Positions 25,416 to 30,242 of a stretch of DNA of 32,803 bases are shown here, piece by piece. Numbering within the stretch: position 1 is the first letter of the stretch; the number at the start of each line of letters is the position of its first letter. The notes under the pieces are model-generated. The model was not told where the DNA came from. It saw nothing but the letters and a program-made list of their open reading frames with translations, and searched no databases. The stretch covers positions 1 through 32,803 of the IMG/VR virus record IMGVR_UViG_3300033148_003939, one strand, 5' to 3'. The DNA comes from a virus. The position numbers and the translations under genes were made by a program.

Positions 25416-25439
25416 ATGACCAGAAGGGAGGTAAAGGAA

Positions 25440-26264
25440 ATGGAAATGCCGCTCAATCACTTATCTTATTCCCAGGTGTCAATGTATCTTAGGTGCCCCA
25501 TGAAGTACTACTGGAGATATATCCGAGGCTACAAGATACCGCCGTCGGCGGCGATGTCCCTCGGGAGCAGCGTGGATTACAGCCTCAATTATAATTATTC
25601 GGAAAAGCTGAAAACCGGAACGGATGAACCGCTTGATACGCTCCTGGATGTTTTTCACGAGGACTTCACCGCTCGAAAAGAGGAGACGGACTTTTCCAAC
25701 GAGGCCCCGGAGAAGGTCGAGAAGGACGGCCTTGAGTTGGTAAAGGTGTACCGCCGGGAAGTCGCCCCCGCCGTCGAGCCTGTCGCGGTTCAGCCAAAGA
25801 TGACGGTGGAATTCGACAACCGCCCCTGGACGTTCGTTGCCTACCCCGACCTTATCCGCATCGAGGGGAATGGCGAAGCCGGGGTCATCGTCGACCACAA
25901 GACGAAGAAGCGGAACCCCTCGCCTGACGTGGCGGCCATTAGCCCCCAGCTTACGGCCTACGCGGCGGCGTATTCCGCCTATACCGGCGGGGTGTTGCCC
26001 GACGCCGTGGAAATCGACTGTCTTATCCGCCCGCAAAAGAACACGGGTGCACAGTTCAAACGATTCACGGCGGAGCGCGGGGAGAAGGAAATCGAGCGGT
26101 GGTGGTATATCGTGGATTCCGTGGCGAAGTCCATTTCGGCGGGAATTTTCCACCCGTGCTCGCCAACGTTATTCGACCGCCGGAATCCCGAATGTTCACC
26201 CGACTGGTGCGGGTACTGGGAACTGTGCCATAACGAGCAGAGTGCCGAATGGGAAGGTTTTTAA
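25440..26264 (+). CDS. RecB/Cas4-like PD-(D/E)XK nuclease with four-cysteine cluster (274 aa)
   Basis: The N-terminal motif LSYSQVSMYLRCPMKYYWRY (residues ~7-26) is the entry signature of RecB-family nucleases. The catalytic core appears as VAYPDLIRIEG, then VIVDHKTKKR (D...KTK), with LTAYAAAYS as the Q/Y motif helix. A Cys in RCP near the start, plus CSPDWCGYWELC near the end, gives the four cysteines expected of an Fe-S cluster as in Cas4 and AddB. In phages these proteins process DNA ends for recombination; a partner annealing protein lies at 27759. The ATG at 25440 has gggaggta before it. Confidence 0.88.
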   Translation: MEMPLNHLSYSQVSMYLRCPMKYYWRYIRGYKIPPSAAMSLGSSVDYSLNYNYSEKLKTGTDEPLDTLLDVFHEDFTARKEETDFSNEAPEKVEKDGLELVKVYRREVAPAVEPVAVQPKMTVEFDNRPWTFVAYPDLIRIEGNGEAGVIVDHKTKKRNPSPDVAAISPQLTAYAAAYSAYTGGVLPDAVEIDCLIRPQKNTGAQFKRFTAERGEKEIERWWYIVDSVAKSISAGIFHPCSPTLFDRRNPECSPDWCGYWELCHNEQSAEWEGF

Positions 26265-26648
26265 GTGAAGTGGTTACTGGCAGCCTCGGTTTTTATCGTG
26301 CTGACCGCCACGTCAGCGGTCGGAGGTGGGCGGTTATACCTGGGCTACACGCCAAACGCCCCCGCCAACTTCTATGCCGGCATCACCGCTGAAAGACGGC
26401 TGAATGAATTTCTCGGCTTTCGCCAGCCCGACATTTACCTGGTGGCGGATGTGAAAACTTTTCAAAATAAACTGGAAGAAGACGTTTACCGGTTTCAGCC
26501 GTCCTCGGTGGTGTACAGCTTCGGCGGTAGCGTTCGGTGGCGCGGGTTGTCGCTGACCGCCAGCCACAGGTGTTATCACGATATCAATAAAATCGGCACC
26601 GTCCGGGAGATTAACTACGTTGAAATATCCCTCGAATTTGGCATTTGA
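26265..26648 (+). CDS. Secreted small beta-barrel-like protein (127 aa)
   Basis: The GTG start directly follows the nuclease stop, with gggaaggt upstream. Residues 1-20 are a signal peptide (MKWLLAASVFIVLTATSAVG). The mature part shows alternating strands: RLYLGYTPNAPANFYAGITAE, DIYLVADVKTFQN, VVYSFGGSVRWRGLSLTASH, and a last strand INYVEISLEFGI. A single conserved-looking HRCYHDI segment recalls a set of phage-encoded small outer-membrane-barrel proteins I have seen. It may alter the host envelope, for example by receptor masking. This suggests a Gram-negative host but is inference. Confidence 0.6.
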   Translation: MKWLLAASVFIVLTATSAVGGGRLYLGYTPNAPANFYAGITAERRLNEFLGFRQPDIYLVADVKTFQNKLEEDVYRFQPSSVVYSFGGSVRWRGLSLTASHRCYHDINKIGTVREINYVEISLEFGI

Positions 26649-26673
26649 CAAACCTAAAGAGGTGTGCTAATAC
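26645..26673 (+). promoter_or_regulatory. Sigma70-type promoter for methyltransferase
   Basis: -35 TTGACA (26645-26650), 17-base spacer, -10 TAATAC (26668-26673). The -35 overlaps the stop of the upstream gene. Confidence 0.75.
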
Positions 26674-26698
26674 TGATGCTAAGAAGGGGGGCGTCACG

Positions 26699-27730
26699 TT
26701 GGATTACCTTTCACTATTTTCAGGAGCGGGACTCGGAGACCTCGGCCTGCAACACCTGGTCGGCCTGACCTGTAGGGGGTACGTGGAATATGACAAATAC
26801 TGTCAACAAGTCCTCAGGCAACGTATCGAAGACGGGTTCCTCGATGAGGCGCCGATATTCGGCGATGTGCGAAACTTCACCGGTGAGGGGTACGCCTTAT
26901 CGTATCAGGGGGTGGTTGAAGCAGTCACGGCGGGATTCCCGTGCCAGCCGTTCAGCGTCGCCGGAAAGCGGCTCGGAGAGAATGACTCCCGAAATCTATG
27001 GCCCGAGACTTTGCGAGTTATCCGAATCGTCCAACCGACAACCGTTTTTCTGGAGAACGTGCCAGGGCTGCTTGCCGCTCGACGTGAAAAATTATTCCGG
27101 TTTGTACAGACTGGAACCGGTAAACAAATTTCTGTCGAAGTTCATTCCTGCAAAATCAGACGAACTCCCTATGCCCTCCGAGTATACGGAGACCTTGCCC
27201 AAAGCGGGTATAGTGCTCGATGGCGTTGCGTATCGGCAGCCGAAGTGGGAGCGCCGCACAGGAGAGACAGGCTCTGGATTAGGGCCGACCGTAACGGTGA
27301 ACGGGAATTACAATCGAAAAGGGGCCAGCAAAACGAGCGGGGATGGACTGAATACAGTGGTGGCAAACGCGGGGCGCAAATGGCCCACACCGACGAGCAG
27401 GGATTACAAGGATACCGGAGACTTGAGCAAAGTCCCGGAAAACAGTTTGTTGCCGAGAAAGGTTTGGAATTATCAAAAGGATGGTGGGATGCCGACCCGG
27501 CGGATGTGGTTAACTCCGAAGTGTCCGAGCGGGGGAGGACAGGCGGTGAGGAAGACGACCGGTGGGGGATTACGAAAGCTGGAAGATCAAGCGGCTCCGG
27601 GGGGGCAACTCAACCCCTACTGGGTAGAGTGGCTCATGGGGTGCCCCATCGGGTGGACAGGCTTAGAGCCCTTGGGAACGCACAGGTTCCGCTCGTGGCT
27701 GCGGTCGCATGGATGCTGTTAACTGATTGA
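26699..27730 (+). CDS. dcm: C5-cytosine DNA methyltransferase (343 aa)
   Basis: I use TTG 26699 (aagaagggggg upstream); an earlier in-frame TTG is the -35 box itself. Motif I is FSGAGLGDLG (residues 6-15); motif IV is FPCQPFSVAGKR with catalytic Cys82; motif VI is FLENVPG (Glu119, Asn120, Val121). Motif VIII is RRDRLWIRA, and the end RVDRLRALGNAQVP (Gly326-Asn327) is motif X. The enzyme transfers a methyl group from SAM to cytosine C5, probably to protect phage DNA from restriction. The target-recognition half (after motif VIII) overlaps a second, conserved-looking frame. Confidence 0.92.
   Translation: MDYLSLFSGAGLGDLGLQHLVGLTCRGYVEYDKYCQQVLRQRIEDGFLDEAPIFGDVRNFTGEGYALSYQGVVEAVTAGFPCQPFSVAGKRLGENDSRNLWPETLRVIRIVQPTTVFLENVPGLLAARREKLFRFVQTGTGKQISVEVHSCKIRRTPYALRVYGDLAQSGYSARWRCVSAAEVGAPHRRDRLWIRADRNGERELQSKRGQQNERGWTEYSGGKRGAQMAHTDEQGLQGYRRLEQSPGKQFVAEKGLELSKGWWDADPADVVNSEVSERGRTGGEEDDRWGITKAGRSSGSGGATQPLLGRVAHGVPHRVDRLRALGNAQVPLVAAVAWMLLTD
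26982..27722 (+). CDS. Protein encoded in an alternative (+1) frame inside the methyltransferase gene
   Basis: This frame is open from 26790 to 27722 (310 codons). I place a likely start at ATG 26982 (cggagaga just upstream), though 26790 and 27171 are also possible. From about 27171 the sequence looks like a known standalone phage protein family: TLPKAGIVLDGVAYRQPKWE, RRTGETGSGLGPTV, NGNYNRKGASKTSGDGLNT, KWPTPTSRDYKDTG, GGQLNPYWVEWLMGCPIGWT, then PLGTHRFRSWLRSHG. I recall this WPTP...LNPxWVEWLMGxPxGWT pattern from phage and prophage proteins of unknown function. Both frames carrying family-like sequence suggests true overlapping genes. How it is translated is not clear. Confidence 0.6.
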   Translation: MTPEIYGPRLCELSESSNRQPFFWRTCQGCLPLDVKNYSGLYRLEPVNKFLSKFIPAKSDELPMPSEYTETLPKAGIVLDGVAYRQPKWERRTGETGSGLGPTVTVNGNYNRKGASKTSGDGLNTVVANAGRKWPTPTSRDYKDTGDLSKVPENSLLPRKVWNYQKDGGMPTRRMWLTPKCPSGGGQAVRKTTGGGLRKLEDQAAPGGQLNPYWVEWLMGCPIGWTGLEPLGTHRFRSWLRSHGCC

Positions 27731-27758: not shown

Positions 27759-28817
27759 ATGACGAAACGTAATGACGACAGGCCAAGGCCGAAGACCTCC
27801 GCCGGCAACGGCGGGAGCCCAGTAACGAAAGACCAGGAAAACGGCAAGGATGTAGTCTTCACCCGCATGGACGACTACGACATCGAGCAGATAGTCCGCG
27901 CACAGGAGGGTTTGGACGCGGAGGCGATGGTTTACAACCTTCCCTTCCGCTCCAAGAACGGCGTCCTCGACTGTGGTTACTCGTGGTGCGACTACCGCGG
28001 GAAACACCCGCACGAGCACGCGGTCAGGATAGGAATCGCGGGCGTGGACGAAATCATCCGGCAGATGGGTGGCATCGAAGTCGGCCCGGTGGGCGATGTG
28101 AAAATGAAGGTCATCGACGGCCGGAAGTTCTTGGAAGCCACCGCCTACGCTTATGACAAATTTACCGGCGTCAAGCGCACCGCTACGGTCTATTACGACT
28201 TCGTAAAACGCGGCAACACCAGTCGCCCCCAGGACTGGCCCGTCATCGCCAAGCGGCTCGCCGAACGAAACGCCGCCACGACGCTGTTGCCGATGATAAC
28301 CAAGCAGAAAATCGCCGAACTTGGAAGGCAGGCTAAGCGCGTTCTGAGCGCGGAAGACATCGCGGCGATTCTGAGGCCCATCTACCAGGAGCGCGAGCCG
28401 AAAAAGATATTCTGGCTCCGCGCACAGGTCGAAGCACAGCGGGTCCTCTCCGGTTCGCAGCAGGCCCTTGATGATATACCCGCTCTTCCCATCCCGGCCG
28501 ACGCGGCGCCGCTTGACAACCCCGAAAATACGTGTAATAATAATGGTGATTCTGATACGGAAATCCGGGGAGGCGGAGCCGGGATGACGCAATCACAAAG
28601 GCGATATTTGTATAAACTGCTATCGGAATTCGGCGCGGACAAGGAAGACGTTTCCGAATTCCTGAAAGAGGCGGTGACCTCGAAACAGGACGCCTCCGCC
28701 GCCATCGAGAACTTTCTCCAGAAAGATTTTTCATCTTTCGAGAACTGGCTTGCCTTGAAAAAAAACGAGGAGGGAGATGAGAGCGATGAAAACGCCCAGG
28801 AAGACATACCCTTTTGA
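27759..28817 (+). CDS. Putative single-strand annealing / ssDNA-binding protein with SSB-like C-terminal tail (352 aa)
   Basis: The core (about residues 60-215) reads like a RecT/Rad52-type annealing protein: MVYNLPFRSKNG, a strand pair KFLEATAYAYDKFTGVKR, then IAKRLAERNAATTLLPMITK, where RNA...LLP echoes the RN-x-x-x-x-L-I-P motif of phage annealases. A disordered acidic linker and a small helical domain (TQSQRRYLYKLLSEFG..., 276-340) follow. The last residues EDIPF equal the SSB C-terminal interaction peptide. Together with the RecB-like nuclease it could form a recombination pair. Fold assignment is tentative. Start follows aaaaaggaggcaag. Confidence 0.65.
   Translation: MTKRNDDRPRPKTSAGNGGSPVTKDQENGKDVVFTRMDDYDIEQIVRAQEGLDAEAMVYNLPFRSKNGVLDCGYSWCDYRGKHPHEHAVRIGIAGVDEIIRQMGGIEVGPVGDVKMKVIDGRKFLEATAYAYDKFTGVKRTATVYYDFVKRGNTSRPQDWPVIAKRLAERNAATTLLPMITKQKIAELGRQAKRVLSAEDIAAILRPIYQEREPKKIFWLRAQVEAQRVLSGSQQALDDIPALPIPADAAPLDNPENTCNNNGDSDTEIRGGGAGMTQSQRRYLYKLLSEFGADKEDVSEFLKEAVTSKQDASAAIENFLQKDFSSFENWLALKKNEEGDESDENAQEDIPF
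28513..28541 (+). promoter_or_regulatory. Internal promoter-like sequence within the annealing-protein gene
   Basis: TTGACA (28513-28518), 17-base spacer, AATAAT (28536-28541). It lies in the disordered linker coding region, 43 bases before an in-frame ATG (28584) with ggggagg upstream. Confidence 0.5.
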
Positions 28818-29169
28818 CGAAGAACTGACGGCGTTTCTGGAGGCGAACGACATCGATGCCGTGGGGCACATGAGAACACTTTCCCGGCTTTGCGCGAAGC
28901 GGATGGTCGCCGGTATCGAAAAGCACGGGGATTTTCTGAGTAAGAGCGTGACTCCTATTTACTGGGTTTCCAGTATGGTGGAAGAGGTCGCCGACGCGAA
29001 GAACTATCTCGACATGTACGTCATATCCACCAACTCCAGGGTTAACGGCGCGCGGCTTTCGGAATTCGAGGAAACCGCGGTCAGAATCATGCAGCGTTAC
29101 CTAACCGCGGCCGGGTGCCTGGCTTATTCGCTGCTTGGACAGCGGGAAGGAAGCTCATCTAAACGATGA
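28786..29169 (+). CDS. Small helical protein, possibly MazG-like NTP pyrophosphohydrolase (127 aa)
   Basis: ATG 28777 is only three bases after gaggagg, so I prefer ATG 28786; either overlaps the upstream gene. The chain is all helical, with KRMVAGIEKHGDFLSKSVTP and MVEEVADAKNYLDMYVI (around residues 65-82), whose E-E-x-x-D pattern is like the metal-binding helix of MazG/dUTPase-type proteins. One such motif alone is weak evidence. It sits between recombination and replication-initiation genes, where nucleotide-pool enzymes are common. Confidence 0.5.
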   Translation: MKTPRKTYPFDEELTAFLEANDIDAVGHMRTLSRLCAKRMVAGIEKHGDFLSKSVTPIYWVSSMVEEVADAKNYLDMYVISTNSRVNGARLSEFEETAVRIMQRYLTAAGCLAYSLLGQREGSSSKR

Positions 29170-30242
29170 GGGTGACACCGAAGATACTGGATAGCGAGGT
29201 GTGGGAGATGCCTCTGAAAGCGAAAATGCTGGCGGTCACGTGTATGCTGCTCGCTGACAGCGACGGGCGGCTCGTGACATCAATCCGGGCCCTCTCCAAG
29301 TGCGCCTCGCTATCCCTTCAGCAGACCAGGACGGGGCTACACATCCTGCAAGATGCGGGTTTTCTTGAAGTCAAGCCAACACAACGAGAAACCGGAATTA
29401 TCGTAAATAAATCGCGCATTTACGAGGCCAAGAGACCGGCAGCCAACACAACCTTCTCCGGGCGCTCCGGAGGAGCCAACACAACTGAAAAATCGGAAAA
29501 ACCCAATGATGACGGCGACTTACACGGCCGCGAAAGCGCCGGCCAACACAACCTTGCCGACAGGGCCAACACAAACGAGACGCCGCGAAAAGACAATAAA
29601 AACGGTGACTTGCAAGGCCGCGAAGGTGTCAGCCAACACAACGGAGCCGAAAAATCGCAAGCCAACACAACTTTTCAAGGGGAAATCAACACAAGCGAGA
29701 CGCCGGAAAAACCCAATGATGACGGCGACTTACACGGCCGCGGAGAGGTGAGCCAACACAACTTTTCAAGGGGAAATCAACACAACGGTATATATATATA
29801 TAATACTAGACTAGAAAAGAATAACAGGAAAAAGAAAAGAGTAATTAGAAAAGAGAATAAGAAAAGCGTTACTGGTAGAGAAGAGGAAATTTTGGAAGAA
29901 GCGCTGTTCCGCGAATTCTGGGAGGTATATCCGCCGTGTCCGCCGTCGCGGAGAAGCCGGAAGGCCACCGTGGCAAGATGGAACGGGCTGGTGAAATCAG
30001 GTGTGAGCGCCGCCGAACTGGTGATGGCTGCGAAGCTCTACGCGGTGGAGAGGGACGGCGAAGATGAAAAGTATACGGCGGGCCCCCAGTTCTTCCTAGG
30101 GCCTCGTGACGAACGTTGGCGGGCCGTCCTGGCGCACGGACGCCGTGACGGCGACATCGCGGTGAAGCTGACGAAGAAGGAAAAGCGGAATATGGATGTC
30201 ATCAACACTATCCTGGGGGAATGCGGCGATGAAGATGAATAA
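29166..30242 (+). CDS. Replication initiator protein carrying an internal origin (358 aa)
   Basis: Residues 1-80 look like a winged-helix initiator N-terminus (RVTPKILDSEVWEMPLKAKM, then SIRALSKCASLSLQQTRTGLHILQDAGFLEV). Residues ~95-210 are a low-complexity spacer rich in N, H, T and Q, with the repeated phrases NDDGDLHGR and QHN. The C-terminal part (FREFWEVYPPCPPSRRSRKA, QFFLGPRDERWRAVL) matches the end of phage O-like/DnaD-like replication proteins. The spacer DNA contains iterons and a following AT-rich stretch, as in lambda gene O. The ATG overlaps the upstream stop. The helicase-loader gene follows. Confidence 0.78.
   Translation: MRVTPKILDSEVWEMPLKAKMLAVTCMLLADSDGRLVTSIRALSKCASLSLQQTRTGLHILQDAGFLEVKPTQRETGIIVNKSRIYEAKRPAANTTFSGRSGGANTTEKSEKPNDDGDLHGRESAGQHNLADRANTNETPRKDNKNGDLQGREGVSQHNGAEKSQANTTFQGEINTSETPEKPNDDGDLHGRGEVSQHNFSRGNQHNGIYIYNTRLEKNNRKKKRVIRKENKKSVTGREEEILEEALFREFWEVYPPCPPSRRSRKATVARWNGLVKSGVSAAELVMAAKLYAVERDGEDEKYTAGPQFFLGPRDERWRAVLAHGRRDGDIAVKLTKKEKRNMDVINTILGECGDEDE
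29443..29786 (+). other. Candidate replication origin: iteron array
   Basis: Nine near-identical copies of [C/T]CAACACAA[C/A/G] start at 29443, 29476, 29543, 29566, 29633, 29662, 29686, 29753 and 29777. Successive gaps are mostly 67 and 23-29 bases, forming ~90-base blocks. A 25-base direct repeat, with acttttcaaggggaaatc as its first 18 bases, occurs at 29670 and 29761. All lie in the initiator gene. Confidence 0.65.
29788..29868 (+). other. AT-rich stretch next to iterons, possible DNA unwinding element
   Basis: It opens with an alternating TATATATATATA run, then a purine-rich A/G tract (aaaagaataacaggaaaaag and onward). It directly follows the last iteron at 29777, the classical order for phage origins. 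Confidence 0.6.

Follow-up and report, generated by a model that had tools for sequence, protein, structure and literature searches.

Two almost fully overlapping reading frames of a phage genome most likely encode the two subunits of a single C5-cytosine DNA methyltransferase, a reading to which we assign a probability of about 0.86. The product of frame 0 (alpha) would form the catalytic domain, which binds AdoMet and holds the nucleophile loop (PCQ), ENV and motif X; the stretch between motifs VIII and X is predicted to be disordered. The +1-frame product (beta) would supply the small DNA-binding domain, comprising motif IX and a scaffold along with one or more target-recognition cassettes of the WPTP type. 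In this phage beta presumably has an internal start of its own, and the two proteins would assemble as a heterodimer, a single modification enzyme whose probable role is to shield the phage DNA from restriction by the host.

The window, by which we mean the whole stretch of DNA analysed, is the virus record IMGVR_UViG_3300033148_003939 (32,803 bases), and its portal, major head and tape-measure genes identify it as a tailed phage. An exonuclease-like gene on one side and a replication-initiation-like gene on the other place the methyltransferase within a replication and recombination gene cluster; PHROG searches with the two open reading frames that directly adjoin it gave no match. The features of the locus and its surroundings are as follows.

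25416-26264, exonuclease-like gene (PHROG 69), 5' of the methyltransferase
26265-26648, 127-aa open reading frame adjoining the methyltransferase on its 5' side, with a signal-peptide-like beginning (MKWLLAASVFIVLTATSAVGGG)
26699-27730, + strand, alpha, C5-cytosine DNA methyltransferase subunit with motifs I-VIII and X (PF00145, PHROG 363)
26790-27722, + strand, beta, the +1-frame protein (PHROG 1008, PHROG 26627; selection tests)
26991-27275, + strand, conserved N-terminal block of beta, in the +1 frame over alpha motifs VI-VIII (alignment, zone dN/dS)
27276-27598, + strand, cassette region of beta, the probable target-recognition region (zone dN/dS; cassettes common to loci with divergent alpha)
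From 27276, + strand, beta module, window cassette 1, (G)PTVTVNGNYNRKG..
From 27381, + strand, beta module, window cassette 2, WPTPTSRDYKDTG..
From 27507, + strand, beta module, window cassette 3, WLTPKCPSGGG..
27606-27659, + strand, candidate motif IX of beta, QLNPYWVEWLMGCPIGWT (near-invariant in 63 betas; profile alignment to M.HhaI)
27662-27691, + strand, motif X of alpha, LRALGNAQVP, in frame 0 directly 3' of the +1-frame motif IX (conserved in the alignment of relatives)
27759-28817, 352-aa open reading frame adjoining the methyltransferase on its 3' side, with the ribosome-binding site AAAAAAAGGAGG ahead of it
29166-30242, replication-initiation-like gene (PHROG 270), 3' of the methyltransferase

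Frame 0 is open from 26645 to 27730 (361 aa), and alpha likely starts at TTG 26699, with AAGGGGGG located seven bases ahead (26684-26691). Alpha matches PF00145 (DNA_methylase) with an E value of 1.1e-33 and 117.5 bits (gathering cut-off 22) and PHROG 363 with an E value of 8e-65, and the PCQ and ENV motifs of the catalytic domain are present as GFPCQPFSVAG and LENVPG. The match to PF00145 covers only about positions 1-175 of the 324 in the profile. An AF2 model of the 361-aa reading frame is confident for residues ~19-216 (the catalytic domain) and ~336-361 (the motif X helix), with low confidence for residues 232-331, and the best structural matches of this predicted fold are to M.HhaI (Z 23.1 over 197 residues, rmsd 2.7). 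A preliminary description of this DNA had assigned all expected C5-methyltransferase motifs to frame 0; motifs I-VIII and X are indeed found there, but neither the Pfam profile coverage nor the AF2 model reveals a recognisable motif IX or target-recognition domain.

In the +1 frame no stop occurs from 26769 until 27720-27722, and the reading frame 26790-27722 encodes 310 aa; the 310 open codons and all of the peptides quoted previously are present as stated. Candidate starts in the window are ATG 26790, GTG 26883, TTG 26916 and ATG 26982 (the last giving a 246-aa protein), none of which is preceded by a strong ribosome-binding site. Beta matches PHROG 1008 ('DNA methyltransferase', E 1.8e-14) and PHROG 26627 (E 1.9e-14), and all of the 63 betas scanned match PHROG 1008, 26627 and 27243. 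As alpha matches PF00145 and beta PHROG 1008 and 26627, the two frames represent two different known phage protein families. The window beta has no match in Pfam or NCBIfam, nor does beta fused to motif X; no direct match to PHROG 116 was found with the window beta, and PDB sequence searches with beta and beta profiles returned nothing meaningful. An AF2 model of isolated beta has a mean pLDDT of 58, and such a poor model fits a part that needs a partner but proves nothing. The same bases are read as FFWRTCQ in beta and as LENVPG in alpha. An insertion of ~29 residues at about 27075-27170, between alpha motifs VI and VIII, is absent from the betas of aligned relatives; it lengthens both frames and closes neither.

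Dual coding of this region is real. A null is needed because motif conservation alone casts a shadow in the N-terminal block of beta, and alpha codons were synonymously permuted or resampled over the overlap in 156 dereplicated loci. These loci contain 33 beta-frame stops, against 545 (permuted) or 802 (resampled) expected, and 49 alpha-frame stops against 1396 expected when beta is recoded synonymously; neither frame survives when the other is recoded synonymously. For the window (180 codons tested) there are no +1 stops, against 5.0 (permuted) or 3.3 (resampled) expected, and stop-free shuffles number 0 of 100 and 1 of 100 respectively. Among the 122 test loci, all outside profile building, the beta C-terminal profile averages 65.5 bits versus 6.0 permuted and 2.7 resampled, with every shuffle exceeded in all 122, and the beta N-terminal profile averages 75.0 bits versus 43.0 and 36.3, with all shuffles exceeded in 107. 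The window itself scores 72.1 bits with the C-terminal profile, of which it is a training sequence, and its shuffles reach at most 23.4. Recoding of beta gives an equivalent picture for alpha motif X, with a mean of 53.7 bits versus 12.7 expected, and the window's motif X scores 66.7 bits versus a null maximum of 34.7 (beta kept, codons recoded).

Selection was compared by zone using Nei-Gojobori counts for 40 independent pairs of relatives (a pooled version was also computed), with dN/dS given below in the order alpha / +1 frame / third frame.

Alpha-only N-terminus, 0.18 / 1.18 / 2.37
30 codons ahead of the beta block, 0.12 / 2.05 / 1.81
Over motifs VI-VIII (beta N-terminal block), 0.26 / 0.77 / 1.97
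Cassette region, 0.92 / 0.43 / 1.35
Motif IX zone, 0.52 / 0.28 / 2.22

The beta-frame ratio falls below 1 only where beta exists (0.28-0.77), and that of the third frame is 1.35-2.37 throughout; because overlap biases simple Nei-Gojobori counts, it is the contrast between frames and zones, not the absolute dN/dS, that constitutes the evidence. Constraint thus moves from alpha to beta at the position of the target-recognition region in a single-chain enzyme, with both frames constrained at the ends, and alpha is relaxed, nearly unconstrained, over the variable cassettes of beta. The relatives avoid stops in the ~30 codons leading up to the conserved beta block, yet show no residue-level constraint there (dN/dS 2.05). 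These data show that both frames are coding and that both are under purifying selection. The comparison between frames suggested in the preliminary description, together with the stop counts and the shuffle nulls in both directions, bears out its proposal that two proteins share one stretch of DNA under dual constraint.

WPTP-type modules number up to five per beta, and usually two or three. The second window cassette, WPTPTSRDYKDTGDLSKVPENSLLPRKV, resembles WPTPTARDHKDTGDLSNVPENGLLPRIV of a locus (L058) whose alpha is 34% identical, and cassette identity and catalytic-domain identity correlate at only 0.14 (8258 pairwise hits). The pattern VNGNYNRK served to recruit some of the first locus set, so that cassette is overrepresented. 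This behaviour fits cassettes that act as exchangeable target-recognition domains. Downstream of them, LNPxWVEWLMGxPxGWT is placed on motif IX in every hhalign comparison with M.HhaI or other single-chain methyltransferases, each weak singly; beta LNPYWVEWLMGCPIGWT is set on the M.HhaI motif IX, KLHPRECARVMGYPDSY, in the profile alignment, with single alignments at E 0.04-0.23. The fused layout is stronger evidence: the fused betas of L164 and mycobacteriophage Bora match positions 441-498 of PHROG 116 (E 5.7e-6 and 1.2e-5), positions ~204-385 of which match alpha. The window beta's putative link to motif IX runs through these relatives and the motif-level alignment, which is not significant alone. 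Bora gp5 gave only a sub-threshold Abi_C match in Pfam. As beta appears to carry the parts missing from frame 0, the target-recognition cassettes and motif IX, it is most simply a second subunit of the same enzyme. The earlier suggestion that the second product modulates the methyltransferase or has an anti-restriction role of its own gives way to this reading, in which it is probably the missing half of the enzyme.

The architecture is widely shared. In viral loci retrieved with either protein, relatives of beta occupy the +1 frame of the methyltransferase. Of 211 loci scanned with four profiles (beta-N, beta-C, alpha X and alpha I-VIII), 208 have a beta-C match. Alpha I-VIII and X both lie one frame behind beta, with beta-N in the beta-C frame, in 190 of these 208; since the loci were recruited through beta this fraction is not a population estimate, and near-duplicates and copies of the window are counted among the 190, which dereplication reduces to 156. 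Motif X is in the beta frame in seven of the 208, and the remainder are truncated or frame-disturbed. X is part of beta, and alpha terminates after VIII, in the following loci:

L028, L029, L030, L077, L127, L164 and L174, plus mycobacteriophage Bora (L213)

The Bora genes gp6 and gp5 form a nearly sequential pair with X on the beta-type protein. Loci from bacterial genomes span Proteobacteria, Verrucomicrobia, Actinomycetota, Planctomycetota, Bacillota, Nitrospirota and others, and a plasmid search gave a single match. A control set of methyltransferases recruited with PF00145 from 18 of the same genomes contains 13 loci with a +1-frame beta and 17 without. Two loci (L044 and L054), in which the alpha catalytic domain is divided between two frames ahead of the overlap, were set aside, as they may be decayed or misassembled.

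Beta-frame ATGs and Shine-Dalgarno-backed starts cluster about 95 codons before the beta block, which is the alpha start itself. In a survey of 142 relatives with a long enough alpha, a beta-frame ATG occurs at the alpha start in 68 (4.1 expected) and a Shine-Dalgarno-backed beta start in 41 (2.6 expected); part of the reason for these low expectations is that frames close sooner after shuffling. A cleaner test uses the 68 loci with alpha beginning M-[NHDY]-[ED] and an expectation from codon usage: the second alpha codon ends in T in 66, against 30.7 expected, and a T in this position creates an ATG for beta 4 nt downstream of where alpha starts (NTG-AATG-AG). This tandem start stands behind one ribosome-binding site in, e.g., L011, L023, L048, L049 and L056. 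It is absent from the window, where the +1 frame opens only at 26769.

Proteins with the WPTP...LNPxWVEWLMGxPxGWT signature had been described as separate phage ORFs. The family is indeed widespread in phages, but the 'separate' ORFs of SOVA965, phiKX1 and phPA-G lie in the +1 frame of an unannotated methyltransferase, and most 'stand-alone' beta genes checked are overlaps with one frame annotated. In SOVA965 and phiKX1 the beta frame is annotated and alpha missed, phPA-G has beta alone annotated, and in ABMM1, S9-5 and Mel-JY01 alpha is annotated and beta missed; both frames are annotated in Paenibacillus phage Bloom (BLOOM_56/57), and in four E. coli prophage records the match sits under a DNA cytosine methyltransferase. 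The apparent separateness thus arises largely because gene callers keep one of two overlapping frames. The question of whether such genes overlap or stand alone is answered mostly in favour of +1 overlaps among the annotated phages examined, with Bora nearly sequential.

Three other explanations deserve consideration. The +1 frame could be open, and similar among relatives, merely through the conserved methyltransferase codons beneath it, and the N-terminal block of beta does still score about 43 bits in frame-preserving shuffles. We consider such a shadow ORF barely credible, as the observed scores beat all shuffles in 107 of 122 loci outside the profile for this block and in 122 of 122 for the C-terminal block, the beta-frame dN/dS of 0.28-0.77 contrasts with 1.35-2.37 for the third frame, constraint on alpha all but vanishes precisely where beta is under constraint, and ordinary methyltransferases are without such a frame. 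Excess +1 conservation, on which the preliminary description had made its proposal depend, is evident in the shuffles, dN/dS and the beta-recoding test alike.

A single polypeptide, generated by a ribosomal frameshift that carries translation from alpha into the beta frame past motif VIII, is also quite improbable. Where X is in the beta frame (the minority layout), a +1 shift at that point would give a complete single-chain motif order, but the majority layout, including the window, has X in frame 0 and would require two shifts. The conserved beta block moreover begins before motif VI and would be left out by a late shift, and 68 relatives can start both frames 4 nt apart, with the beta-ATG base kept in 66 of 68 against 30.7 expected. 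The lack of a Pfam, NCBIfam or PDB sequence match to the window beta is what a separate regulator, inhibitor or anti-restriction factor with an incidental overlap might present; this, too, we regard as quite unlikely, given that alpha is without IX and a target-recognition region, that beta-type proteins fused to X exist, that IX-X of the fused betas matches the C-terminus of a profile also holding the catalytic domain, and that cassette modularity suits a specificity domain.

If the two-subunit reading is correct, a tandem start would couple synthesis of both subunits, and its form suggests a simple route to two subunits in a fixed ratio. Changes in methylation specificity would be constrained by the need to keep the second frame open, and the locus would offer a natural setting in which to study the diversification of a specificity domain whose bases encode another protein as well. 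A phage protein family of unclear function would be explained as enzyme subunits, and alpha cloned or annotated alone may be a dead methyltransferase. To our knowledge, long and conserved same-strand overlaps with measured selection in both frames are uncommon. The beta/methyltransferase family is absent from the accessible entries of the GeneTack survey of conserved frame transitions, and a literature search on overlapping phage methyltransferase genes, with subscription papers and REBASE outside its reach, found nothing relevant. We give even odds to the broader proposal that these nearly whole-gene +1 overlaps constitute an old unrecognised class, distributed among prophages and phages of many bacterial phyla; each would write one enzyme twice over, many members would have starts 4 nt apart behind a single ribosome-binding site, and cassettes would be exchanged inside the overlap.

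Among known systems, single-chain C5 methyltransferases such as M.HhaI, Dcm and those of PHROG 116 have the same catalytic domain (Z 23 to M.HhaI) and the same order of IX then X on the DNA, but use one frame and one chain, and 17 same-genome loci of this kind have no +1 protein. PHROG 1008, 26627 and 27243, which represent the beta family, are listed apart from the methyltransferase, with the overlap and the subunit relation unstated. The small-subunit gene of M.EcoHK31I, the one characterised bacterial enzyme known to have such a layout, lies in an alternative frame of its large-subunit gene. M.AquI (CYCGRG) has motifs I-VIII on its large subunit and IX-X on the small (PMC3404938), and in this it resembles the minority layout (the seven loci with X in the beta frame and Bora gp6/gp5); in the window motif X stays with alpha in frame 0 and the two genes overlap over nearly their whole length. 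The two-polypeptide methyltransferase M.EcoHK31I (YGGCCR; Lee, Kam and Shaw 1995, as described in PMC3404938) splits its motifs so that I-VIII and X fall to the large subunit and IX to the small one, and its predicted target-recognition domain is placed in the large subunit (PMC3404938). By its described motif layout the large subunit is like alpha; in the window, however, the VIII-X stretch of alpha is relaxed and predicted to be disordered, the conserved variable region is in beta, and the system is phage-borne. The window enzyme is best filed, by its motif layout, as one that would work like M.EcoHK31I. What is new here is the breadth of the family, the evidence of selection, the interchangeable cassettes and the tandem start common to 68 relatives.
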